From IMG/VR virus record IMGVR_UViG_3300022540_000256, positions 1 to 42,895 of that record: a stretch of 42,895 nt of DNA. One strand, written 5' to 3'. A program made the position numbers and the translations under genes. Below are positions 2,381 through 28,823 of this stretch, piece after piece. The first letter of the stretch is position 1; the number at the start of each line of letters is the position of its first letter. The notes under the pieces were generated by a model, which made no database searches, had not been told where the DNA came from, and worked only from the letters and a program-made list of their open reading frames with translations. Source of the DNA: a virus.

Positions 2381-4278
2381 TTGTTGGGGCAGGAGGGGCA
2401 GAGGAGCGGCACACCAGCAATGCAACCGCTACGGGCCTGTGGGCTAGCCCCGTCTATATAGAAATCCACACGGTCAAAAAGTACACTGGCGCGGCCTGTT
2501 ACTACTTTAAGCAGCTTGCTACTGGTAATGCGCCCCAGAGCGCAAATCAGGCTAGCGGGTGGTGGTCGTGGGCCAATTGGTTCTCAGGGTTTAATGATGG
2601 CACCTACAGGCTAATCTTTAAGCTGTGCAACGACGATGGCGGGAGGTTCATAGGCTGGAGCAAGGGGACACAGACCTATGAATCCAAGCTGACTATGTGG
2701 AAGGGGCCAAGTGCTGGCACCGTGCTGGTGGACTCAGGCGCGACACAGTTCACCGCCGCTATGTGGCACCGAGTCAAGCTGGAGTTCGCTGCTGGGCATT
2801 GGACTGCTTGGGCTAGTGACGACGGTGCTGCCTGGACGCAGGTATTCACCTACAATGATAGCGGAAATTTTACGACTATGGGCGTCATGCACATGAGCCT
2901 AAACGCCTCTACTGACGAGACCAAGGGAGAAGCCTACGGCCAGCAGTATGCGGACGATTGTATCTACTGGGACGACGATGGGGACAACTGGAACTCACGC
3001 ATCCCTGCTGACGACTTCCCCCGCATCTCCCTGGCACATATGCCTAACACTGTCGGAGCCAAAGACGAGTCCGATGCAGGACAGGCAGCCCTGATAGATG
3101 ATATGCCACCCACTCACGCAGCGGACGGTACGGACAAGTCCACTATTGACGAGACTGACTACTGGACGGACGTGGATGACCTGGATGAGACCGGCACAAC
3201 TGAGAATCCTGACCTTACCGTTGAGACCATTCAAGCTTTGATGGTGACACACGTAGCAGGCACTTTCGGCGCCGAAGACACAGAACTAAATAAGTACAAC
3301 TACTCGCCCGACCAAGGCACCACCGTTTATACAGATGTGGAGGAGGGCGGTCGTGTAATCCAGGTCGGGGCGGAGTTATCTGGAAGCCCCGTTAACTGGT
3401 GGACTCATGCAGGCTATTTTCCCTGGACGCCGGAGACCACTTCGCGTTCATGGACAGAGGCTATCTTCGAGGCGTCTCAGTACGGCATCAGCCTCATAAA
3501 TACTAAGACTGACCAGATGACAGTGCAGGTCATCTTCTTCGGGTCGAGCCATGAGTGGAGCCCACCAGCCGGGGAGATTGAGTGGCTCTCAGGTATCATT
3601 GCAGCACAGTCAGGGCTCTCTGGTGTCCTAATCAGAGACCGTTCCCTCTCAGGTTCCATTGGGAGTGTATCCGTGCTTACAGGGCTGTTAGTGCGAGATA
3701 GACCACTATCGGGCCTCATAGATAGCCAGTCTGGGCTATCAGGCTCATTAGGAAGGCTTCGTTCTCTCTCAGGCTCAATAGATGCTGTCTCTGCACTTGT
3801 AGGCGCTCTGGAGGTGCTGAGGGAGCTACAGGGAGTCATTGCTGGCCAGTCTCAACTCACAGGCAACATAACTCGTGACCGTAAGTTGGCAGGCTCTATC
3901 GACGGACAATCCTCCATGTCTGCCACACTAAATGTTCTCATAGCCTTGCAGGGTACAATTGATGGTCAGTCCGGCCTCTCTGCTACGTTGAATGCTCTCT
4001 TGGCCCTGCAGGGTGCTATCGATGGACAATCCTCCCTCGATGGTACTCTTTCCATGGTGTACGGTCTGGGGGGTACTATCGAGGCCGTCAGTACCATATC
4101 AGGTAACCTTGTAGTGCTGTTTAGTTTATCGGGCACCATAGCCTGTGTATGTGTTATTGATGGCAATCTAACTATCATACACCCATCACCACTACGGCTT
4201 GATGCTGCTGCAAGGGCCATACCACATCCTCTATTTGGTGATGCATGGCAGCAACCGAAGGAGCCTCCAGATGGCTAA
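2377..4278 (+). CDS. large tail protein with lectin-like domain and 20-residue repeats
   Basis: A 633-residue protein starting with GTG in a GTGA overlap. Residues of about 40-210 look like a concanavalin/LamG-type beta-sandwich (MWHRVKLEFAAGHWTAWAS, DGAAWTQVF). A linker and a second beta-rich part follow. Residues 404-603 are ten consecutive 20-residue repeats of the form LSGxIxxxSxLxGxLxxxxx, and a short tail ends the protein. Such architecture fits a fibre or spike that binds surface glycans. It sits between other tail genes and overlaps the next gene by eight bases. Confidence 0.65.
   Translation: MIVGAGGAEERHTSNATATGLWASPVYIEIHTVKKYTGAACYYFKQLATGNAPQSANQASGWWSWANWFSGFNDGTYRLIFKLCNDDGGRFIGWSKGTQTYESKLTMWKGPSAGTVLVDSGATQFTAAMWHRVKLEFAAGHWTAWASDDGAAWTQVFTYNDSGNFTTMGVMHMSLNASTDETKGEAYGQQYADDCIYWDDDGDNWNSRIPADDFPRISLAHMPNTVGAKDESDAGQAALIDDMPPTHAADGTDKSTIDETDYWTDVDDLDETGTTENPDLTVETIQALMVTHVAGTFGAEDTELNKYNYSPDQGTTVYTDVEEGGRVIQVGAELSGSPVNWWTHAGYFPWTPETTSRSWTEAIFEASQYGISLINTKTDQMTVQVIFFGSSHEWSPPAGEIEWLSGIIAAQSGLSGVLIRDRSLSGSIGSVSVLTGLLVRDRPLSGLIDSQSGLSGSLGRLRSLSGSIDAVSALVGALEVLRELQGVIAGQSQLTGNITRDRKLAGSIDGQSSMSATLNVLIALQGTIDGQSGLSATLNALLALQGAIDGQSSLDGTLSMVYGLGGTIEAVSTISGNLVVLFSLSGTIACVCVIDGNLTIIHPSPLRLDAAARAIPHPLFGDAWQQPKEPPDG
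3586..4185 (+). repeat. ten tandem 60-base (20-residue) repeats
   Basis: Ten consecutive units of exactly 60 bases encode LSGxIxxxSxLxGxLxxxxx. Examples are LSGIIAAQSGLSGVLIRDRS, LQGTIDGQSGLSATLNALLA and LSGTIACVCVIDGNLTIIHP. Units keep their length with no indel, while the five-residue ends vary (RDRS, LRSL, VLIA). Regular Leu-Ser-Gly/Ile spacing suggests a solenoid or triple-stranded fibre shaft. Central units are the most alike at DNA level, as expected of recent duplication. Confidence 0.85.
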
Positions 4279-6123: not shown

Positions 6124-7974
6124 ATGCCTGAGATTCTACACAATATAGCAACGGTTCAGATCGGCACCGAGTCCTATCAACTGGTGCGTAGGGGTACGGA
6201 GGGCACTCTACGCAGAGAGTTTGTGGATGAGCCACCATGGAGCGAGGGCATGCCTAACATCCTGTCCGAGCCCTCTGACACATGGCACCTAGGTGGGTTG
6301 AAGTCCCGCCCAGGCTTTCCAGGCACATCCGAATATGGCTCAAACACCGATTGTAGGTGGCCGAACAGGATACTACCTGGGCCACAGGTATCTACTATCA
6401 CCCTGACTGGTAGCGTAGGCCGGCCTACCCGCTTCTTCGAGGCTCTAGGTCACCTGTTTGTTCTTGCAGGGAGAAAGGCCTACCGCATTGACCCTGCGGA
6501 TGACTCAGTGGTAATGAGCAAGGATTTGTACAGTTGGTCGGAAAACTATAATGACTACTTCATTGATGGGCTGAGATGGGAAGGCGACATTGGGATAGTA
6601 ACCTGGCGTAGTAACGACGATGACTTGGATATTATGTCGAAGGTTACAGCCCTAGGGACTCCTGATACGTGGGTCTTGCCATCACCAACAGCGCACGCGA
6701 CCTGGATGGCTGCAGGCATTGACCGCCTGTTTTGTGTTGACATAGAGGGGCTACTCAAAAACATAGTCTCAGGACTCGACCCTACAGATCCTTACAAACA
6801 CTCGGACCTCATCCAATGTGGAGACACCTCATCGGTTCCTACTGGGCTTGTGGCCTATGGCAAGACGGTGCTCGTTGGAAAGCCCGAAGGGGTGTTTGGT
6901 GTTGACGCTGAGGGCCTTGGAGTTCCTCTTGTCAAGCGCATCCAGCGGAATGATGACAACTTCAGGGGTATGACAAACGTTGACCCCTATGTGTTCCTTC
7001 CACACGGCCGAGGAGTGTACCGCTGGGTGCCTGGTTACGTTGAAAGCGTAGGCATTGAGAGAGAGCTCCTCAACGAGTCTATTGTCAGGGGTGGGTTCAA
7101 CGCCTTTGCTGTTGATGGCAGATGGATTCTTGGTGTCATAATGATAGGTGGCATTGGTGGAAGTGCCATGATTATGATGGCCAGGGACCGTACCGAGGAC
7201 GAGGCTGGGTTTGGCCCTTATGTCTGGGATACTCTTGTCTATTTGGTGGGGGTGGATTGCGAGGCAATACACGTCTCTAGCCTCTGGGACCCTCCTCGTG
7301 TTTTCTTTGGGCATGATTACAATGTAGGCTACTTCAAGGTTTCCTCGGGTGGTGGCGCTCCTGATGTTGTTGGCACCGATTATCGCTTTGCTACATCAGG
7401 CAAGCGTTACACCCGCAAGTACGGCTTTGGTGATAGAGGTGTTAAGGACTTTGTCAAGGTGGTCGTAGTCGGTGAGGGACTAACGGCCAACCGTTACTGG
7501 GAGGTATACTACAACGTGGACGGGGGAGGCTATTCCAAACTCGACGTTGACGGTAATGACATGAAGATAGACTCAGATGGCCGTAAGACCTTCTACCTCC
7601 CCAAAACTGCTGTAGGCCACGAGATTCGGTTCTACCTTGAGTGCACAGGCGATTCCAACAGCTACCCACCTGAGCTAACCTACTTCGAGCCTTTCGCGGT
7701 TCCTCAAAGCCGCAAGGTCCCCCTCATACCCATCACGCTCAGGCTGGCCGAGGGGACTGGCCATGGTGTTGGCAGGGAAGCGCGAGGAGCCGATAAGCAG
7801 CTTAACGACCTTATCACTCTATCAGAAAGTGCCACGGCTATAGACCTGAAGGGCCCTTGGGGTGACTTCTCAGGCTGGGTGCGCAAGGTAAGAGTGGTGG
7901 ACATGGTGCAGGAAGGCTCATCCCCACCAGAACTAATCACCGAAGCCCTGTTGCAGCGAAGGGAGGAGTCATAG
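6124..7974 (+). CDS. putative tail nozzle (beta-propeller-like) protein
   Basis: A 616-residue beta-rich protein with repeated short blade-like units (RFFEALGHLFVLAGRKAYRID, AGIDRLFCVDIEGLL, TVLVGKPEGVFGVDAEG, YVFLPHGRGVYRWVPG), a spacing suggestive of a propeller. The C-terminal part has WEVYYNVDGGGYSKLD and HEIRFYLECTGD, typical of jelly-roll folds. Podovirus nozzle proteins combine a propeller with extra beta-domains and follow the adaptor gene, as here. No enzyme motif is visible. Confidence 0.45.
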   Translation: MPEILHNIATVQIGTESYQLVRRGTEGTLRREFVDEPPWSEGMPNILSEPSDTWHLGGLKSRPGFPGTSEYGSNTDCRWPNRILPGPQVSTITLTGSVGRPTRFFEALGHLFVLAGRKAYRIDPADDSVVMSKDLYSWSENYNDYFIDGLRWEGDIGIVTWRSNDDDLDIMSKVTALGTPDTWVLPSPTAHATWMAAGIDRLFCVDIEGLLKNIVSGLDPTDPYKHSDLIQCGDTSSVPTGLVAYGKTVLVGKPEGVFGVDAEGLGVPLVKRIQRNDDNFRGMTNVDPYVFLPHGRGVYRWVPGYVESVGIERELLNESIVRGGFNAFAVDGRWILGVIMIGGIGGSAMIMMARDRTEDEAGFGPYVWDTLVYLVGVDCEAIHVSSLWDPPRVFFGHDYNVGYFKVSSGGGAPDVVGTDYRFATSGKRYTRKYGFGDRGVKDFVKVVVVGEGLTANRYWEVYYNVDGGGYSKLDVDGNDMKIDSDGRKTFYLPKTAVGHEIRFYLECTGDSNSYPPELTYFEPFAVPQSRKVPLIPITLRLAEGTGHGVGREARGADKQLNDLITLSESATAIDLKGPWGDFSGWVRKVRVVDMVQEGSSPPELITEALLQRREES

Positions 7975-21469: not shown

Positions 21470-22132
21470 TTAGTTGCAACTCCATGGCCAGCTTGACATC
21501 CAGGGTGCCCAACCTTGCTCTATCCATATCTCATAGGCAATGGCCGCGTTCTTTACAGGATCATCCCAATCTGTCCAGTAGTTCCAGCCTCTTGCTGTGA
21601 ACCTCCAGGCATGGACGGGCATCAGTTGGAACAATCCTTTGGCCCCACTGGGATTGCTCTCCAGGGGATCGAGCCCTGACTCGCTACAGGCGACTGCTGT
21701 GGCTGTTGCACAGTCCCAGGGGTAGGAGCAGATAATAACCCCAATGCCTTCAGTTGGTGCTGGAGCCGCTTCAAGTATCGGCGTGGGTATTTGCGTTCGA
21801 GGAATGGGTCGGGGCGTAGGTGTGACATCTATCATCCCTTCCTTTCCCGGCGTGGGCGTAGCCGACCACGCTTCCTCCGTGATGGACTCGGTTTGGTTCC
21901 CTTCCTCTGAATCTTGTGTTGTGGCATCTACCTCCTCACCCTCTGGTAGTACCACCACGACTCTACTAGGGATAGTATCACGCAGACCCCCATCCCTATA
22001 GCCGCTCCAAGTAGAAACCACATTGCGTCCGTCATCTCCTTGTTGAACATGGTTGCCTCCAAGCTGACTAGCCCCAACAATAGCTGCTATACAAAGGCAT
22101 GTGGAGGCTACCGCCAGGGTGTAGCGCCCTAT
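21470..22132 (-). CDS. lytic transglycosylase-like protein, start unresolved (probable frameshift)
   Basis: The C-terminal 90 residues match soluble-lytic-transglycosylase/lysozyme-like folds: ATAVACSESGLDPLESNP (catalytic Glu), GAKGLFQLMP and NAAIAYEIWIEQGW. A Pro/Thr-rich linker (TPTPRPIPRTQIPTP) precedes it. The first in-frame ATG is at 21835 (121 residues), but the linker and a good signal-anchor (YTLAVASTCLCIAAIVGAS) continue upstream in frame to 22132, where the only candidate is ATA. A well-placed ATG pair at 22158 with GAGGAG reads MMPNLRGGA and stops one base before that ATA. One added base would join it to the anchor. The enzyme would cleave peptidoglycan at the membrane. Confidence 0.6.
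   Translation of the reverse strand: MGRYTLAVASTCLCIAAIVGASQLGGNHVQQGDDGRNVVSTWSGYRDGGLRDTIPSRVVVVLPEGEEVDATTQDSEEGNQTESITEEAWSATPTPGKEGMIDVTPTPRPIPRTQIPTPILEAAPAPTEGIGVIICSYPWDCATATAVACSESGLDPLESNPSGAKGLFQLMPVHAWRFTARGWNYWTDWDDPVKNAAIAYEIWIEQGWAPWMSSWPWSCN
21832..21927 (-). CDS. tiny basic ORF inside transglycosylase linker
   Basis: A 31-residue ORF (MPQHKIQRKGTKPSPSRRKR and onward) starting directly after the TAG of the 40-residue membrane ORF, in the same frame, with AGGAGG three bases from the ATG. Its TGA overlaps the ATG at 21835. It is strongly basic only because it is the alternative frame of an acidic linker, so it may be a shadow. It is listed because its spacing and overlaps mimic a real gene. 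Confidence 0.2.
   Translation of the reverse strand: MPQHKIQRKGTKPSPSRRKRGRLRPRRERKG
21928..22050 (-). CDS. nested 40-residue membrane protein
   Basis: The ORF starts MFNKEMTDAMWFLLGAAIG and ends ESWWYYQRVRR, with one transmembrane segment (about residues 11-27). The ATG has a near-ideal site (GGAGG, five-base spacer). It lies entirely within the transglycosylase frame, in another phase, an arrangement like Rz/Rz1-type nested lysis genes. It might be a holin, a spanin-like partner or an inhibitor of the transglycosylase. Either this gene or the upstream part of the transglycosylase frame could be the true product here. Confidence 0.5.
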   Translation of the reverse strand: MFNKEMTDAMWFLLGAAIGMGVCVILSLVESWWYYQRVRR

Positions 22133-22154
22133 GCTCCACCTCTCAAGTTAGGCA

Positions 22155-22406
22155 TCATTGGCTCCTCTCTACTCGGCCGATCTCATCATGCAGAGCAGTA
22201 TCGGCATGTTCACGGTCAGACTCCTCTTGGTTGAACCTGTCCTCTAGCTCCCGCAGGCGTATGCGTGTGGCCGACAGCCTCTCGTCGATACCACTCATAC
22301 GCTCACCGTGACCTAGTAGGGTATTCTTGAGGTCAGTCGTGAGATCACCAACACGCTCACCGAGGTCCTCAATGTTGGCCTTAAGTTTGGCTATGTCACC
22401 GTTCAT
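22155..22406 (-). CDS. small coiled-coil protein
   Basis: An 83-residue protein (MNGDIAKLKANIEDLGERVG, LLGHGERMSGIDERLSATRI, LRELEDRFNQEESDREHAD), predicted to be one continuous coiled coil. AAAGGAG lies six bases before the ATG. The stop TGA overlaps the ATG pair at 22158 that leads into the transglycosylase locus. Similar short coiled coils occur in phage lysis regions, but the function is unknown. Confidence 0.6.
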   Translation of the reverse strand: MNGDIAKLKANIEDLGERVGDLTTDLKNTLLGHGERMSGIDERLSATRIRLRELEDRFNQEESDREHADTALHDEIGRVERSQ

Positions 22407-22424
22407 GACAGTCTCCTTTCTGCT

Positions 22425-22523
22425 ACATCACAGGCCAGTAGGGCCAAGGAGCCAGGTGAGTAGCCAGTGAGGAGCACCCGTTGGTGTGACGTGAGACTCC
22501 CCGACCCTACAGGAATGTGATGT
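22425..22523 (-). ncRNA. structured intergenic element E
   Basis: The gap before the 83-residue gene is closed by ACATCACA 22425-22432 with TGTGATGT 22516-22523 (8 pairs). An internal loop with two further pairs follows, then GTAGGG 22438-22443 with CCCTAC 22505-22510. The interior can form further short hairpins (for example CACC/GGTG around 22476-22487). On the minus-strand RNA the 3' arm ends just upstream of AAAGGAG, and the 5' arm abuts the stop of the preceding gene. It is probably a member of the same set as elements A-D. Confidence 0.5.
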
Positions 22524-22533
22524 CTAGACATCA
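22518..22533. promoter_or_regulatory. 16-base perfect palindrome, possible operator
   Basis: TGATGTCTAGACATCA is a perfect inverted repeat with no spacer, located at the 3' end of the 56-residue zinc-ribbon gene and overlapping one arm of element E. A dimeric repressor site is possible. The overlap with the RNA helix offers another explanation. No function can be assigned. Confidence 0.35.
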
Positions 22534-22694
22534 AATTTGACATTTCTCCAAGGTAACTCCATTACCTCCAACAGCCTCTTAGACACACCACACCTGACAC
22601 AGTATATGCCTACGACTAGTTGTAGTGGAGACCTGGGCTTAGACCACTTGTGGCCACACCTTCTACAGAGGTACCTTCGCCACCAACCAAGCAT
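22524..22694 (-). CDS. zinc-ribbon microprotein
   Basis: A 56-residue ORF (MLGWWRRYLCRRCGHKWSKP, GIYCVRCGVSKRLLEVMELP). Two C-x2-C knuckles 19 residues apart make a classic zinc ribbon, with basic residues around them. It starts three bases after the stop of the preceding 32-residue membrane ORF, with only a weak ribosome site, so translation may be coupled. Its target is unknown; nucleic-acid or host-protein binding is likely. Confidence 0.6.
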   Translation of the reverse strand: MLGWWRRYLCRRCGHKWSKPRSPLQLVVGIYCVRCGVSKRLLEVMELPWRNVKFDV

Positions 22695-22697
22695 GAG

Positions 22698-22796
22698 TTA
22701 GCCCCAGGCCTCTATCAGCTTGACTGTGACATAGGCTGTGATAGCTACGGCCCAGATAGCCCAACCCAGGTACGCTATAGCCTTCCAGTACATCAT
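22698..22796 (-). CDS. 32-residue membrane microprotein
   Basis: The ORF starts MMYWKAIAYLGWAIWAVAIT and continues AYVTVKLIEAWG. It is one transmembrane helix with almost no soluble part. The ATG lies in an ATGA overlap with the upstream gene and has GGGAGGGGG before it, so it is very likely translated. A role in membrane targeting, superinfection exclusion or lysis timing is possible, but nothing decides between them. Confidence 0.6.
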   Translation of the reverse strand: MMYWKAIAYLGWAIWAVAITAYVTVKLIEAWG

Positions 22797-22987
22797 GCCG
22801 TCCCCCTCCCGGGTGGTTCTCTCTGGGCCTCTAGACCCGCCTCATAGCCAGCCTGCCAACAAGGGCAGTCGCTTGTAGTGTGCTGCTCACTAGGCTGGTC
22901 GCAAGCAGCGGTGCAGATGTCCTCCTTGGGAGGGCCTCGTATCTCCCGCTCACTGCGGATGATGTCCTCTGGTGCCATATCCATCAT
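22793..22987 (-). CDS. small Cys-containing protein, unknown
   Basis: A 64-residue ORF (MMDMAPEDIIRSEREIRGPP, ICTAACDQPSEQHTTSDCPC, WQAGYEAGLEAQREPPGRG). Four Cys in the middle could form a metal site. AAGGAG lies five bases before the ATG, which overlaps the previous stop (ATGA). The stop overlaps the start of the 32-residue membrane gene. The family is not recognised. Confidence 0.55.
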   Translation of the reverse strand: MMDMAPEDIIRSEREIRGPPKEDICTAACDQPSEQHTTSDCPCWQAGYEAGLEAQREPPGRGTA

Positions 22988-23193
22988 ATCTGCTCCTTCA
23001 CTGCCAGCCCACAGGCCGACTGAAACTTCCTTAGCTCGAACCTAGTGTTGTCGTTGTAGAACATCCCCGCAAGGACATAAATGGTGTAGACAATTGCCTC
23101 TGGCCCTGTGATGCCTGGTGCGTGCCTTGTGGTATGCTCTAACTGTGCCCTCATCACCCTAGCTACTGCCTCATGGTGTTGCTGAGTAAACAC
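22984..23193 (-). CDS. small helical phage protein (DNxxF...ACG family)
   Basis: A 69-residue protein with a GTG start and AAGGAG upstream. The pattern HHEAVARVMRAQ ... GMFYNDNTRFELRKFQSACG is shared with the 75-residue gene at 24514-24741 (HYDDLAKFLRAE ... HLAADNPQFDRERFLKACG). I regard the two as paralogues of a small family common in phages and of unknown function. The start lies just downstream of structured element D2. Confidence 0.6.
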   Translation of the reverse strand: MFTQQHHEAVARVMRAQLEHTTRHAPGITGPEAIVYTIYVLAGMFYNDNTRFELRKFQSACGLAVKEQI

Positions 23194-23207
23194 TATGCTC
23201 CTTTCCT

Positions 23208-23314
23208 AACTTCTACACCCACCGCCCCTGAGGAGGACTGGCCACGTTTCCGCTGAGTCTCACAGCCCTCCTCTAGGCGGACCCAAAGGGAGAAGGGCGA
23301 TGGAGGTAGAAGTT
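23208..23314 (-). ncRNA. structured intergenic element D2 (long closing stem, two hairpins)
   Basis: On the minus-strand RNA, bases 23314-23295 pair with 23228-23208: nine perfect pairs (AACTTCTAC/GTAGAAGTT), one C-U mismatch, then ten more pairs of which two are G-U. Inside are a CCC-TTT-GGG hairpin (23282-23290) and an 11-pair stem, 23263-23273 with 23230-23240, with one G-U and a 22-base loop. The G-U pairs exist only in the minus-strand transcript; the plus strand would have A-C mismatches. That supports an RNA read with the operon. AAGGAG of the next gene follows immediately. Confidence 0.6.
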
Positions 23315-23328
23315 ATTTGCTCCTGCTT

Positions 23329-23419
23329 CCCCCGCTGCCCTGGTGATAATCATAACCAGGGTGCGGTCCACCTTCACCATCTGGCCGAAGCCAGGGGGGT
23401 GCGGCGAGGGCAGAGGGGG
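23329..23419 (-). ncRNA. structured intergenic element D1 (three-way junction)
   Basis: A closing helix pairs CCCCC 23329-23333 with GGGGG 23415-23419, then one mismatch, then CTGC 23335-23338 with GCAG 23410-23413. It encloses CTGGC/GCCAG (23381-23394), whose loop is TTCG on the minus strand, the very stable C(UUCG)G tetraloop. It also encloses CCCTGGT/ACCAGGG (23338-23361) with a ten-base loop. The closing arm is followed by GGAG, but no gene starts between D1 and D2. A small hairpin GGTGG/CCACC (23418-23433) adjoins the upstream stop. Confidence 0.5.
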
Positions 23420-23433
23420 TGGCAGGAACCACC

Positions 23434-23587
23434 CTAATTGAATACCTCATCTTGGCACTTCTGACACAGACCTGATATAGCATACTCCTTTCGACTCAGC
23501 CCATCCTTGAACTCTGTAGCAGGGCCACTACAGCCAACAGGTGAGGCAATACACCTGCTAGACTTAATAGCTGTGGTGCGGCCCCAT
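23434..23587 (-). pseudogene. zinc-site microprotein gene with one-base frameshift at its start
   Basis: A frame open to TAG at 23434 encodes RCIASPVGCSGPATEFKDGL followed by SRKEYAISGLCQKCQDEVFN. I recognise this as a small conserved phage family with C...C and C-x2-C and the signature LSRKEYxISGLCQxCQD. The expected ATG at 23587 (TAATG overlap) reads MGPHHSY and stops. Removing one G from the GGGG after ATG restores MGRTTAIKSSRCIASPVG. So this is a homopolymer sequencing error, a recent mutation, or a frameshift site. Confidence 0.65.
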
Positions 23588-23640
23588 TAGCGTTCTAGGA
23601 GGGCTTCTATCTCAGGGTGTTTCTCACTAGGCTCAGGCAC
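23587..23640 (-). CDS. 17-residue ORF between two coupled genes
   Basis: A GTG in the TAGTG overlap with the preceding stop begins a frame reading VPEPSEKHPEIEALLER and ending with TAA, which overlaps the ATG at 23587. Overlaps at both ends suggest ribosomes pass through this frame, either making a 17-residue peptide or simply coupling the two genes. Evidence for a functional product is weak. Confidence 0.3.
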   Translation of the reverse strand: MPEPSEKHPEIEALLER

Positions 23641-23813
23641 TAGAATACTCCATTCGGTTTGGGGCACTCACATCCTAAGTACCAGACCTTCTGAGGCTGG
23701 CCGTGGAAGATGATAAGGCCTTGCTTCTCCTCACGTTCACATAGACAGGTTGAACATCTAAGGATCGTGTCCATGTGAGGTTGCCTAGACACACGGTAGA
23801 ATCCTATTCGCAT
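23640..23813 (-). CDS. zinc-site microprotein
   Basis: A 57-residue ORF (MRIGFYRVSRQPHMDTILRC, STCLCEREEKQGLIIFHGQP, VWYLGCECPKPNGVF). The cysteines C-x2-C-x-C and C-x-C make a probable zinc site. AAGGAG lies about ten bases before the ATG, directly after structured element C. It is followed by the 17-residue ORF through a TAGTG overlap. Its function is unknown. Confidence 0.6.
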   Translation of the reverse strand: MRIGFYRVSRQPHMDTILRCSTCLCEREEKQGLIIFHGQPQKVWYLGCECPKPNGVF

Positions 23814-23831
23814 GGTTCGCTGCTCCTTTCA

Positions 23832-23904
23832 GAGTGGGCCGGTAGGCTGGGTCAGGGTTGAGGATGCCTCTCACTATTCAGTTGTAGACCTACCGGCCCT
23901 ACTC
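23832..23904 (-). ncRNA. structured intergenic element C (15-pair stem)
   Basis: GAGTGGGCCGGTAGG at 23832-23846 pairs with 23889-23904: eleven continuous pairs, a one-base bulge at 23900, then four more. The 42-base interior contains GAGG-ATG-CCTC (23860-23870). No T-tract follows, so it is unlikely to be a simple terminator. On the minus-strand RNA the 3' arm ends three bases before AAAGGAG of the 57-residue gene; the 5' arm begins six bases after the stop of the preceding gene. Confidence 0.6.
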
Positions 23905-23910
23905 GCTAAC

Positions 23911-24399
23911 CTAGCCTGTTGCTACAGGCTCGTCCTCGCAGACCATCTCGTACTCTGATTCCTCTTGCATACGGTAGCCCGTTACCTTCTTGGTGATCTG
24001 GCAGTTAGAGCCAGCAGGGAGGCCATTGAACTCAACCCGTAGCCCTTGCTTGAAGCCAGGTAACTCATTCAGGGAAAAACTGTAACCGACCTGGCCGCTC
24101 CACTTTACCAGGGTACGGCGTGGCTTTTTGTAGGTTTGGTCTGGATGTTGCCCTAATAGATAGGTATACAGCTTGTCCACGTCGGCGTGAAGGGCATCCG
24201 CTGCCTCTGGGCCGTTGGCAGGTTCTTGGGGCCAAAGGCTAAGACTGCTAGGAGTCAAATTCCCGATGCGATAGCGCCTTTGCACAAACGAGGGCAAGAT
24301 GTCCTCTATCTTGTCAAGCAGGTCTAGCTCCCCAGTAACCTTGCGTAGCCAATAGAGCGAGGTTTTCCTCTGCTCACGGTAGGCATCATGCTCACTCAT
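23911..24399 (-). CDS. phage protein of unknown function
   Basis: A 162-residue protein starting MSEHDAYREQRKTSLYWLRK; the ATG at 24399 follows AAGGAG and overlaps the previous stop. A helical N-terminal half (GELDLLDKIEDILPSFVQRR) is followed by a beta-rich C-terminal half (TLVKWSGQVGYSFSLNELPG, LPAGSNCQITKKVTGYRM) ending with acidic residues. The family is not recognised. Confidence 0.6.
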   Translation of the reverse strand: MSEHDAYREQRKTSLYWLRKVTGELDLLDKIEDILPSFVQRRYRIGNLTPSSLSLWPQEPANGPEAADALHADVDKLYTYLLGQHPDQTYKKPRRTLVKWSGQVGYSFSLNELPGFKQGLRVEFNGLPAGSNCQITKKVTGYRMQEESEYEMVCEDEPVATG

Positions 24400-24521
24400 C
24401 TGACTCTCCTTTCTCCATAATACTCCCTCAGCCAGCAGGTCAGGCAAGTGCAAGGATATGACCCCTCACCTGGTATCCTACTAGTTGAGACTGTACCACA
24501 TTGAGGGCAATACTTAGTCAT
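24396..24521 (-). CDS. zinc-ribbon microprotein
   Basis: A 41-residue ORF (MTKYCPQCGTVSTSRIPGEG, SYPCTCLTCWLREYYGERRV). C-x2-C and C-x-C-x2-C knuckles form a zinc ribbon. The start at 24521 overlaps the previous gene by eight bases and the stop overlaps the next start (ATGA). The longer frame to 24596 lacks a ribosome site. Its target is unknown. Confidence 0.6.
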   Translation of the reverse strand: MTKYCPQCGTVSTSRIPGEGSYPCTCLTCWLREYYGERRVR

Positions 24522-24741
24522 CAGGTTCCACCCCACATGCCTTAAGGAACCTCTCCCTGTCAAACTGTGGGTTGTCAGCAGCAAGGTGGTCAGCAAGGCG
24601 CTCTGCCACCCTACGCTTTGACTCCAACATCAGGTGCTTGCTATGGACGGCAGCAATTCCCTCTGGCTCAGCCCTAAGGAACTTTGCCAAGTCGTCGTAG
24701 TGCCTAGTGTTGTACCTAGGATTGGTTGGGTACTCAGGCAT
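24514..24741 (-). CDS. small helical phage protein (DNxxF...ACG family)
   Basis: A 75-residue protein: YNTRHYDDLAKFLRAEPEGI, RRVAERLADHLAADNPQFDR, ERFLKACGVEPDD. It shares the H-Y/H-x-x-x-A-x-x-x-R-A and DN-x-x-F-x-x-x-x-F-x-x-ACG pattern with the gene at 22984-23193. GGAGG lies eight bases upstream of the ATG. The family is widespread among phages in my experience but uncharacterised. Confidence 0.65.
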   Translation of the reverse strand: MPEYPTNPRYNTRHYDDLAKFLRAEPEGIAAVHSKHLMLESKRRVAERLADHLAADNPQFDRERFLKACGVEPDD

Positions 24742-24744
24742 AGT

Positions 24745-25422
24745 TTATCCCTCCACTTGCCTTGAACTTGGTAGGACCGACACAATGTTACCTGCATTGA
24801 CACCTGCATGGTACGCCTCTGGCTGGACATTTACCGTCCTGCCACGCCTCAGGTCAGGATACTCCTGGTGCATAAAGGTATTAGTCTCCTCAGTGAGATT
24901 GACCACTAGCGCACGAGTGTTTGCATCCTGGCCTAGCTCCAACTCCTGCAACCTCTCACCTATCCGGTTGATGGCACCTAGCAGGAACGATCCCTTCCAA
25001 GCACTGTTGACTGGTCGCCCGAGAAACTCCTGCACCCCTGCCTGAGTAGATGCAAGTATCTCTAACTGGCCAGTGAGCCAAGAGGCCATCTCCTTGACCG
25101 CCTCAACATTGTGCTTGCGGCCAAGGATGTGACTCTGGCCATTTGAGATGACTGTGCGGCAGAAGTTGTGTCGGGCGATTGCACTGAGGAGAAAGCGTTT
25201 CCACTGTACTGCCCCTACATCAAACATCTCATTTAGTACAGGGCAGGGCTCAGCACCCTCCTCACACTCTGCATCGGCCATGTCTAGATTATACCTGAGG
25301 AGCATGGCCTGTAGCCGCTCCATTGCCAGAGACGCTTCATGCTCAGTGGCAGCCTCATCAGATGCAAGGCGTAGTAGTACTCGCACCTTCTCAAGGATAC
25401 CTTCTGGTGGTGCGGTGGTCAT
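24745..25422 (-). CDS. DUF2786 protein with C-terminal DUF7168-like domain
   Basis: A 225-residue protein. Residues 7-50 match DUF2786 (ILEKVRVLLRLASDEAATEH, EASLAMERLQAMLLRYNLDM). The rest (FLLSAIARHNFCRTVISNG, LGRKHNVEAVKEMASWLTGQ) matches the domain that usually follows it in phages and some bacterial proteins. No function is established. The ATG overlaps the stop of the 41-residue gene upstream (ATGA). Confidence 0.75.
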   Translation of the reverse strand: MTTAPPEGILEKVRVLLRLASDEAATEHEASLAMERLQAMLLRYNLDMADAECEEGAEPCPVLNEMFDVGAVQWKRFLLSAIARHNFCRTVISNGQSHILGRKHNVEAVKEMASWLTGQLEILASTQAGVQEFLGRPVNSAWKGSFLLGAINRIGERLQELELGQDANTRALVVNLTEETNTFMHQEYPDLRRGRTVNVQPEAYHAGVNAGNIVSVLPSSRQVEG

Positions 25423-25544
25423 GGCCTCATCTTGCCAAACCAGCGGATGAAGGAGGACCTAATATGGCCTCTGCACTTAGCACAGTAGCCACCATACACC
25501 CTCCTTCCATGCTTACTGTGGCATAAAGGATTGCGACACGGCAT
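25419..25544 (-). CDS. zinc-site microprotein
   Basis: A 41-residue ORF (MPCRNPLCHSKHGRRVYGGY, CAKCRGHIRSSFIRWFGKMR). C-x4-C and C-x2-C plus His make a probable zinc knuckle in a basic protein. AAGGAG lies nine bases before the ATG, and the TGA overlaps the DUF2786 start. A competing frame with a GTG at 25627 overlaps structured element B and is less likely. Confidence 0.6.
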   Translation of the reverse strand: MPCRNPLCHSKHGRRVYGGYCAKCRGHIRSSFIRWFGKMRP

Positions 25545-25573
25545 CGCTCATGCTCCTTTCTCTGGCTACTCCA

Positions 25574-25638
25574 ACCGAGGGGCTGGCAGGGTCCACACCT
25601 GCGTCCAATGATATATCCTTGGCTCACAGCCCCTTGGT
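25574..25638 (-). ncRNA. structured intergenic element B (three-way junction)
   Basis: A closing helix pairs AGGGGCTG 25578-25585 with CAGCCCCT 25627-25634, extendable by ACC 25574-25576 with GGT 25636-25638. Inside are GCAGG 25586-25590 with CCTGC 25598-25602 (loop 7) and a weaker CCAA 25605-25608 with TTGG 25619-25622 (loop 10). The gap runs from the stop of the 55-residue gene to the ribosome site of the 41-residue gene. The layout of one closing stem and two hairpins is like elements A and D1. Confidence 0.5.
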
Positions 25639-25642
25639 GAGA

Positions 25643-25810
25643 CTAACCCTCCGTGTACTCCTGGCGTGGAGCCTCATCTATCAACCGTATGATGCATGAT
25701 GCCCTTCGCCAGTTCTCCGGGGGCCCACTGATGTTGGCCAGGACCTCACGGACGAAGGCCATATCGTCCTCATTGATTTCCAATGTGATGGCCTTCCACT
25801 TGTCAGGCAT
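25643..25810 (-). CDS. small acidic protein, unknown
   Basis: A 55-residue ORF (MPDKWKAITLEINEDDMAFV, REVLANISGPPENWRRASCI, IRLIDEAPRQEYTEG). AGGAGG lies about nine bases before the ATG, directly after element A. Composition and codon use look like its neighbours. A helical core with charged ends is predicted. The family is not recognised. Confidence 0.6.
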   Translation of the reverse strand: MPDKWKAITLEINEDDMAFVREVLANISGPPENWRRASCIIRLIDEAPRQEYTEG

Positions 25811-25828
25811 TGTGGTACTCCTCCTTTT

Positions 25829-25947
25829 GCTAGACCACCCGGTGCTGTTACCAAGGGGAGCACCTCCGATTCGTTGGAGGCGTTACCAGCAAGGACACAA
25901 TTAGTTGTGTTCTCCCTCGCCTTAGCAACAGCACTGGAAGGTCTAGC
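25829..25947 (-). ncRNA. structured intergenic element A (nested helices, three-way junction)
   Basis: GCTAGACC 25829-25836 pairs with GGTCTAGC 25940-25947. A symmetric 5/5 internal loop follows, then GTGCTGTT 25842-25849 with AACAGCAC 25927-25934. A shorter helix made of AAGG/CCTT and GGAG/CTCC (25853-25860 with 25912-25923) comes next. Two hairpins lie inside: CCTCC/GGAGG 25863-25880 (loop 8) and ACACAA/TTGTGT 25895-25910 (loop TTAG). The paired bases are Watson-Crick. The last arm ends four bases before AGGAGG of the 55-residue gene. Confidence 0.65.
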
Positions 25948-25962
25948 CTCCCAGTTGCCATT

Positions 25963-26142
25963 CTATTCCTCGAACTCCTTTGGCCAGTGCTCCCCAGCCA
26001 AGGCTTCGTGCTTCCCTAAGGCGTAGAACCATGTGTCGAAGAGGAGTTCAAGCGCATGGCGGAAGCACAGGCATAGTTGGCTTCCATAGATACCTCCAAT
26101 AAAGAAGGCAGCATTCGCTCCGCAAGTCTCACACTTTGGCAT
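25963..26142 (-). CDS. zinc-site microprotein, first gene of the early operon
   Basis: A 59-residue ORF (MPKCETCGANAAFFIGGIYG, SQLCLCFRHALELLFDTWFY, ALGKHEALAGEHWPKEFEE). C-x2-C and C-x-C-x2-H make a zinc site resembling B-box or ribbon folds. AAGGAG is six bases before the ATG. It is the first gene behind the TTGACA promoter at about 26205, so it should be among the earliest products. A host-takeover role is plausible but unproven. Confidence 0.6.
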   Translation of the reverse strand: MPKCETCGANAAFFIGGIYGSQLCLCFRHALELLFDTWFYALGKHEALAGEHWPKEFEE

Positions 26143-26181
26143 GGTACTCCTTTCGCGCTACTCACCAACTTGCTACCTACC

Positions 26182-26210
26182 AGTTTAACCCTATAACTTG
26201 CGCTTGTCAA
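26182..26210 (-). promoter_or_regulatory. sigma-70-type promoter of the early minus operon
   Basis: On the minus strand TTGACA (26205-26210) is followed by 17 bases and TAAACT (26182-26187; four of six consensus bases). ACTTG and CAAGT (inverted, 26197-26213) overlap the -35 box, and CCAGTT/AACTGG flank the promoter, so a repressor may bind here. The 59-residue gene starts about 35 bases downstream. Confidence 0.65.
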
Positions 26211-26407
26211 GTGATAACTGGTTAACTTGGCATAGAACTTGTGTGCTAGTAGATATGATTAAGTGCATATACATTACCATGCCAACCCGCGCCACAGTCT
26301 AACTGTTAACCCGCACAATCAATAACACAATACCGCCATAGCCTCAGATACAGTAAACACATTAAGGTGTTGTTTTAGTGTATAATCACGAAAGCCCGAG
26401 AAATCGC

Positions 26408-26436
26408 TTGACAGCTAATGTCCTGGGGTGTAAGGT
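26408..26436 (+). promoter_or_regulatory. promoter of the isolated plus-strand gene
   Basis: TTGACA (26408-26413), 17-base spacer, TAAGGT (26431-26436; three of six). The -35 box is perfect and the -10 box weak, suggesting activation or low constitutive use. The gene starts at 26545, leaving a leader of about 100 bases. Confidence 0.55.
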
Positions 26437-26544
26437 GAAGATGGTAGTCAGCACGTTAACAATCATAGACGCGGCTCAGAGTGGCGAGAGCCCAACTTGG
26501 GGCCGCAACTAATAGAGATGGCGACATCTCAGGAAGGAATCCCA

Positions 26545-27165
26545 ATGCCAGAACAGGAGACTGTGACTCTCGCATCCGAGGGAGCGAGAATCAAGCGTCT
26601 GGAAGCTGACTTGGCAGATGCAGTCAAAGCGCAAGAGACTGCTATCACGGCCATGACCAAACGCCAGAAGGATGCCAGCACAGATGAATTGCTGGCACTG
26701 GCCGATGACGTTCGAGTGGCCAAGTCGAAGTGCGATGGCGTGCAAGCCACAATCAACGCCAGCCAACGTACCATCGGCCGACTCGAATGGGAAGCCAAAA
26801 GCGCAAAGCTGACGGCCGTTCTTAACCCCATTGCTAGTCAAGTGCGCCAAGCCATCGTGAACGCCAAAGCCACCATGACAGAGTTCAAGGTGACTGGGGT
26901 GGTGGTGACTGTGACAGACGTGGACAAGGCCGATGTTATGGTCGCAGTCAAGCCCACGGGCCCAGACGTTCCAAAGCCGCCCGCGAAGCGTGGGAGTGGC
27001 GGAGGTGGCGGTGGTGGAGGTGGTCGCGTTCCACTGACTGTTGATGACACCGAGTACGCTAGTGCAAACGCTGCGCTGATGGCCATATTCCCCGACTTCG
27101 AGGGCAAGATGGGGCGTCAGGCAATCATAGCCAAGCTGGAGAAGGCAGGCCACACGGTCAGCTAA
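26545..27165 (+). CDS. isolated accessory (moron-like) protein, unknown
   Basis: A 206-residue protein. The ATG at 26545 has GGAAGGA seven bases upstream; the frame also contains an ATG at 26518. The N-terminal 80 residues are coiled coil (ARIKRLEADLADAVKAQETA). A beta-segment (FKVTGVVVTVTDVDKADVMV) and a linker with nine Gly follow. The C-terminal domain is VPLTVDDTEYASANAALMAI ... MGRQAIIAKLEKAGHTVS. It has its own promoter and terminator and opposes both neighbouring operons, the hallmark of a moron. A defence, exclusion or host-control role is possible. Confidence 0.65.
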   Translation: MPEQETVTLASEGARIKRLEADLADAVKAQETAITAMTKRQKDASTDELLALADDVRVAKSKCDGVQATINASQRTIGRLEWEAKSAKLTAVLNPIASQVRQAIVNAKATMTEFKVTGVVVTVTDVDKADVMVAVKPTGPDVPKPPAKRGSGGGGGGGGGRVPLTVDDTEYASANAALMAIFPDFEGKMGRQAIIAKLEKAGHTVS

Positions 27166-27175
27166 ACTGCATATA

Positions 27176-27215
27176 CCCCCTAGCAATTAAGTGCTGACTA
27201 CTGCTAGGGGGTTTT
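27176..27215 (+). terminator. intrinsic terminator
   Basis: CCCCCTAGCA (27176-27185) pairs with TGCTAGGGGG (27202-27211), ten perfect pairs, followed by TTTT (27212-27215). The 16-base loop can form a further AGT/ACT pairing. It ends transcription of the isolated gene 10 bases after its stop codon. Confidence 0.85.
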
Positions 27216-27422
27216 GCTTACCTTCCCTCACAGAACATTAGTTCTGATAGGAGTGGGGGTGTTTGTGCTGGCCAGCTATAGACGCTCCCTATACCGCCCA
27301 CCCATCATAGCCACCACCTATCCGAAGCTATGCCTACGATCGGGGTATCCTATACACACACGTAAGGCTCTCCTCGCCATTTTTACCAAAATCACAAAAC
27401 GACCCGAACACATGTTCCACCC
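27216..27422. other. intergenic region between converging units
   Basis: About 207 bases between the terminator and the end of the second minus-strand operon. It holds an inverted repeat CAGAAC-ATTA-GTTCTG (27231-27246) and a palindrome GCTGGCCAGC near 27268-27277. It also has, on the minus strand just after the last stop, a small GAACA/TGTTC hairpin followed by T-rich sequence, which may act as a weak terminator. No convincing gene is seen. Confidence 0.4.
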
Positions 27423-28588: not shown

Positions 28589-28621
28589 GAACGACTCCAA
28601 TACTCTTATTACTACAAGTGT

Positions 28622-28650
28622 ATAATAGCATGGGGGTCGTCTCATGTCAA
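28622..28650 (-). promoter_or_regulatory. strong promoter of the second minus operon
   Basis: On the minus strand TTGACA (28645-28650), a 17-base spacer and TATTAT (28622-28627): all six and five of six consensus bases. The spacer contains half of an inverted repeat GGGGTCGT (28633-28640) / ACGACCCC (28695-28702), a possible operator. This is the best consensus promoter in the window. Confidence 0.75.
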
Positions 28651-28823
28651 TATGGGTAGTGTGTGTACACTCTTTAGCATTATATGACTCCCACACGACC
28701 CCTCCATAGTTACACTCTCTATGTAATAGATGTTTAGTAGTCGTCTGCGCCTTCAGATGGCTATAAATGCACACCATTACACACGAAAACACTCAAATAG
28801 CTACGCATATCACTCCAAATAGC

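Follow-up and report, generated by a model that had tools for sequence, protein, structure and literature searches.

The early message of phage T7 is cut by the host RNase III at five sites to yield mono- and dicistronic messages (PMC4858673). Three further described systems serve for comparison here: the extended start-associated sequences (ESAS) of cluster K mycobacteriophages, which are 17 bp repeats with a spacer of 4-13 bp and a sequence consensus, and whose authors found RNA pairing unsupported by the departures and favoured DNA-protein binding (PMC3203893); the integron attC sites of 57-141 bp (PMC3053210); and, as a case of translational coupling, the long hairpin upstream of gene IX of phage f1, which is present in a single copy and is inhibitory in the described model (PMC12548453). 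In this study, we describe an RNA hairpin element that recurs in the gaps of a minus-strand early operon in the virus record IMGVR_UViG_3300022540_000256, the entire 42,895 bp of which are called the window below, and in its relatives. The window derives from an unclassified and uncultured IMG/VR phage, and its genes include those for a terminase, a DNA polymerase, a helicase-like protein and a dCTP deaminase. The element is previously undescribed, and we are nearly certain that it represents a genuine covarying RNA family without a match in Rfam 15.

The public phage record collection is remote from the window, with about 25-28% identity in TerL and the polymerase. Single-protein searches for relatives gave no match, and no relative was found in genome contigs searched with terminase A2. 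Alignment-based terminase searches yielded about 30 related contigs with 51-68% TerL identity. The early operons of the relatives share genes, such as that for a DUF2786 protein, and carry the same kind of helix in their gaps with the pairing kept; eight related records carry the same element. The copies fall into five sequence classes (A, B, C, D and F), which align nearly gap-free in both arms. In our main alignment of 20 elements (19 from relatives and one from the window) over a helix base of 27 positions, 94.5% of the cells are paired, and 16 of the 24 pairs show double compensatory changes (17 of 24 in an earlier 16-copy alignment). Doubly changed cells number 66 versus 18.9 in shuffles, a count that exceeds by far that of any slid register. 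The covariation score of 0.527 compares with 0.262 for shuffles and with 0.18 or less when the register is slid. The sequence shared among classes is illustrated by GCUAGACC/GGUUUAGU of classes A and C and GCUAGUCC/GGAUUAGU of class B, which differ by a compensatory change of A-U to U-A.

As the copies were initially chosen for having helices, the comparison with shuffles alone could flatter the covariation. This concern is answered by the sequence shared among the classes, which makes their homology independent of pairing, by the discovery of copies outside the training sets (L106:4083-4204, L102:5574-5683, L089:6332-6403 and L113:1960-2031), and by the recovery of window copies with R3, a covariance model built from the relatives only. 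R3 finds 25813-25947 of the window (Element 1 in the list below) with an E-value of 2.4e-11. With filters off in a 4.7-kb region, it matches 22408-22523 (Element 6; 24 bits, E 8.5e-5) and, weakly, 23195-23310 (Element 5; E 0.024) and 25551-25647 (Element 2; E 0.28). All of these matches are on the correct strand and in the correct place, and the two weakest are supported mainly by position.

Outside the family, the searches were negative. Neither the window nor L102, L123 and L106 have a match above the chance level in Rfam 15, which agrees with an earlier note on this DNA, whose reader knew no named phage RNA with this placement. Model R1 matched none of 83 other viral loci (734 kb), no DNA similar to Element 1 was found in 50,697 phage records, and pattern scans of viral contigs refound only the family. 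A single pattern match in a Bacillus genome is near the chance level, estimated at one or two for a collection of this size. The records of L096, L097, L114 and L111 have no model match, indicating that the element family is not universal in the lineage.

The early operon of the window, as read from open reading frames (ORFs) and Shine-Dalgarno (SD) sites, consists of small genes on the minus strand (22155..26142). At most junctions from 26142 to 22155, the genes overlap or lie only a few bases apart, and the exceptions are the gaps pointed out in the earlier note, which was right that each is closed by long helices: all six are present on the transcribed (minus) strand. Its claim that the 3′ arm lies just ahead of the ribosome site of the next gene also held, since the window 3′ arms end 0-5 nt before AAAGGAG and each helix that precedes a gene adjoins such a site. 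The features are as follows, in the order of transcription.

26182..26210, minus strand: promoter-like site TTGACA-17-TAAACT at the operon head, upstream of gene 25963-26142.
25829..25947, minus strand: Element 1 (class A), arms 25916-25947 and 25829-25860, with two apical hairpins; downstream gene 25643-25810 with SD AAAAGGAGG at 25820-25828.
25564..25648, minus strand: Element 2 (class F), arms 25627-25648 and 25564-25585; the 5′ arm contains the TAG stop of the upstream gene (25643-25645); precedes gene 25419-25544, SD AAAGGAG at 25553-25559.
23832..23904, minus strand: Element 3, arms 23889-23904 and 23832-23846; precedes gene 23640-23813, SD AAAGGAG at 23823-23829.
23318..23429, minus strand: Element 4, arms about 23407-23429 and 23318-23341; first of a tandem pair, after the TAG stop at 23434.
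23207..23315, minus strand: Element 5, arms 23293-23315 and 23207-23229; precedes gene 22984-23193, SD AAAGGAG at 23198-23204.
22425..22523, minus strand: Element 6, arms 22495-22523 and 22425-22453; begins immediately past the TAG stop of gene 22524-22694 and precedes gene 22155-22406, SD AAAGGAG at 22413-22419.

Element 1 was aligned to the copies in L102, L104, L106 and L123, and the sequence of Element 2 resembles the class F copies in L102:5574-5683 and L123. No homologue of Element 3 or 4 was detected by the models, and these two are assigned by helix and placement alone. The fold z-scores of the gaps, computed against dinucleotide shuffles, were -5.3 for 25811-25962 (Element 1), -4.6 for 23194-23433 with its two tandem elements (about -3.5 to -5 for Element 4), -3.3 for 22407-22523 (Element 6), -2.6 for 23814-23910 (Element 3) and -0.9 for 25545-25642, the last of which is understated because the helix extends 6 nt into the preceding gene and is cut off by the gap limits. 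Shuffled sequences fold less well than the gaps. Equal folding had been named earlier, along with a lack of covariation and relatives devoid of the pairing, as an outcome that would speak against the helices, and none of the three was observed.

We also scored gap-penalised helices ending near the ribosome site at 530 gene starts, taken from the window and from its relatives. A helix score of at least 36 was reached at 26 of the 292 minus-strand starts versus 2 of the 238 plus-strand starts, the expectation from shuffled upstream DNA being 0.2; a minority of the 26 are promoter-region inverted repeats, so that the count of elements only is somewhat lower, and the contrast persists without them. 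The enrichment is limited to early gene starts. The window genes in the high tail are those at 25810 (score 53, Element 1), 23193 (45, Element 5, with 22 pairs and 1 mismatch), 22406 (44, Element 6) and 23813 (35, Element 3). This score separated the elements from ordinary sequence, whereas a fixed 120-nt z-score scan and raw longest-helix counts did not.

Some other features of this region were observed. On the minus strand, 23434-23640 contains a frame matching the L096:2-211 gene (64% over 50 aa) with an in-frame TAA after about 17 codons. The operon proteins 22984-23193 and 24514-24741 match the same region of the L089 protein 2929-3372 and, judging from these matches, may be paralogues. 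The plus-strand gene 26497-27165 interrupts the early operon, and relatives have a plus-strand gene in the same place (L089:6945-7541).

What is conserved across the family is the helix base, the mismatch positions, the UUAGUAG-like 3′ end and the placement between stop codon and SD. From the outside inward, the helix comprises eight pairs, a mismatch-prone position, three pairs, a second such position, one pair, a third, about twelve pairs and a variable apex. The approximately 27 positions correspond to about two and a half turns, with the mismatch-prone positions at 9, 13 and 15 from the base. These positions (columns 10, 14 and 16 of alignment A9) keep constant distances from the helix base and are often C·A or A·C. 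The elements begin and end with GCUAG... and ...UUAGUAG or with GCUGG... and ...ACAGUAG. The upstream stop codon usually lies at -4 to +9 relative to the first arm base and is often the UAG of GCUAG itself; the 3′ arm is followed by AG and then by an AAAGGAG-type site, placing the SD core 4-9 nt past the arm. Arms are up to about 30 nt long and elements about 56-161 nt, with class-specific sequences. The apical region ranges from a few to about 110 nt, and its inner hairpins, which differ in both number and length, lack conservation. The two enclosed hairpins that had been proposed as a constant architecture are therefore not a family trait; only the outer helix of about 27 positions is.

BLAST shows no relationship among the genes that follow the five class A copies, and several different gene families have a class D element ahead of them. 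As the flanking genes are mostly unrelated, the element can be regarded as a portable punctuation mark. Within a genome, a class is represented by a single copy in most records, with class F occurring twice in L123, and one copy per class would fit an avoidance of recombination between copies. In L006:7432-7668, a perfect inverted repeat of 17 bp stands on either side of a 55-aa ORF, and its end lies immediately ahead of the AAAGGAG site of gene 7180-7416; its placement is that of the elements, and its sequence is unrelated.

Inverted repeats at many gene starts could act at the DNA level, either as attC-like sites of single-strand recombination that shuffle small gene cassettes or as sites of DNA-protein binding. 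The elements resemble attC sites in that they follow stop codons between small, mostly unrelated genes, are of similar length and keep their structure while the sequence varies. In the aligned register on the transcribed strand, however, G·U occurs 73 times versus 17 for A·C, which is mostly at the mismatch-prone positions. Because G·U was scored as a pair during the search, this count is biased toward G·U, but the bias does not explain the excess, since inverted repeats that cover the promoter of the first operon gene and were gathered in the same way show 12 G·U versus 23 A·C. The excess on the sense strand indicates folding of RNA and not of duplex DNA, whereas attC acts via the bottom strand (PMC3053210). 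Moreover, RYYYAAC and GTTRRRY cores were not seen in the elements when their aligned ends were read by eye, with no separate scan, and the PF00589 tyrosine integrase is absent from 7 family records and present in 14 of 14 controls. Identity with attC was rejected on these grounds. The elements share with ESAS the many inverted-repeat copies directly upstream of different phage gene starts, but differ in their RNA pairing, longer arms, apex of up to about 110 nt and class-specific sequences; identity was rejected, as the 17-bp repeat, the 4-13 bp spacer and the shared consensus are lacking. We consider action at the DNA level the least probable of the explanations. Together with the covariation, the G·U excess bears out the earlier proposal of a conserved RNA and not of DNA repeats.

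Long inverted repeats of another kind lie ahead of the first early-operon gene of the family (window, about 28618-28784; L102:8696-8816; L122:7837-7968; L118:2672-2803; L117:3794-3940; L111:2415-2544). In relatives, these promoter-region repeats overlap TTGACA-type promoter sequence. Their excess of A·C over G·U suggests that they are DNA-level operators, a feature separate from the RNA elements.

Long hairpins between genes are typical of terminators or attenuators and of small RNAs, and the helices in the gaps could be taken for either. An intrinsic terminator was rejected because no minus-strand terminator-like site (GC-rich stem and U-run) is present at the elements. There is no U-tract terminator at any of them and no same-strand promoter nearby: 26182..26210 at the operon head is the only promoter-like match on the minus strand within 21800-27000. 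The elements are, in addition, invariably linked to the SD of the gene that follows. Transcription attenuators, terminators or independent small RNAs are thus improbable, and the last, which the earlier note had entertained, found no support. A short and very stable hairpin is present elsewhere in the window, at 27168-27217 on both strands (z about -7 and -6), directly after the stop of the plus-strand gene 26545-27165, and is likely a bidirectional terminator between convergent genes.

Next to the SD, the helix might be expected to control translation. The SD is not hidden: its median unpaired probability is 0.54 for element genes versus 0.48 for others (p 0.10). As the SD is not paired in the predicted structure, a translational switch that sequesters it was rejected. 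The phage f1 gene IX hairpin is likewise intercistronic and ends shortly upstream of a start, whereas our elements are multi-copy with an accessible SD. The chief rival to processing is a translational bridge or decoupler, in which the helix sets the stop codon of one gene beside the SD of the next and promotes reinitiation or blocks it by geometry, without cleavage. This is consistent with the anchoring of both stop codon and SD at the helix base, with the division by the elements of blocks whose other genes overlap or abut, and with the reported negative correlation between structure just past a stop codon and coupling (PMC12548453). However, SD strength and accessibility are not significantly different from those of other early genes, and a plain hairpin would suffice, leaving the conserved mismatches and end sequences unexplained. 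We regard such a bridge as possible but doubtful.

Our leading, still tentative reading, which falls somewhat short of an even chance, is that the elements are intercistronic sites of processing and insulation that work like the RNase III sites of T7. Like T7 sites such as R1.1, they are long irregular hairpins of RNase III size, repeated between early cistrons near the next ribosome site of an early message that is presumably polycistronic. With helices above the 12-bp minimum and of the R1.1 type, they are of the kind cleaved by E. coli RNase III (PMC8708148). Unlike the T7 sites, they have a conserved base sequence, a mismatch register and a variable apex, their stop codon is usually at or in the 5′ arm, and their sequence family is unrelated, so that the likeness is one of apparent working and not of membership. 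The helix would form once the upstream gene has been translated, and a host double-strand RNase of the RNase III type would cut it. The leftover stem would then shield the upstream message at its 3′ end, and the block downstream would begin as a short-leader message with its strong ribosome site exposed. The same class of element is found ahead of unrelated genes, as expected of a generic punctuation signal, and the accessible SD, the lack of a terminator or internal promoter, and the lack of a recognisable integrase or RNase III gene argue for a signal that acts on a polycistronic message.

Several points weigh against processing. The seven family records encode no recognisable RNase III, so that a host enzyme would be needed; the stop codon is tightly anchored to the helix base, which cleavage does not require; and the elements are known here from sequence alone. 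The conservation of the mismatches and of the GCUAG...UUAGUAG ends suggests, in addition, that a specific binder is involved and not just generic recognition of double strands. These features are explained by neither processing nor translational bridging and may be the mark of a binding protein. The elements could accordingly be binding sites for a phage or host RNA-binding protein that switches blocks of early genes on and off in a coordinated manner, for which the conserved GCUAG/UUAGUAG ends and the mismatches at register positions 9, 13 and 15 speak. As the rest of the helix sequence varies freely between classes and no candidate RNA-binding protein was identified, we consider this unlikely. 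Overall, the results support the suggestion of a role in translation or processing made in the earlier note as an interpretation, the function itself being what we infer.

To our knowledge, phage RNA families with covariation support are few, and cultured phages are the source of most of them. The family described here is multi-copy, follows a sharp geometric rule of stop codon, helix and ribosome site, and recurs before unrelated genes in uncultured phages. There is perhaps one chance in a few that it constitutes a new intercistronic class of RNA, in which one helix joins a stop codon to the next SD and sets the passage of ribosomes by geometry or through a dedicated binder, as a portable mark whose structure is kept while the copies have diverged, perhaps avoiding recombination. 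The family can readily be used to test in what way compact phage operons are divided, by cutting or insulation, into blocks expressed separately, and whether T7-like mRNA processing has independent origins elsewhere. As near-identical repeats would recombine, the family also suggests that a repeated structure with differing sequences can itself be a selected state.

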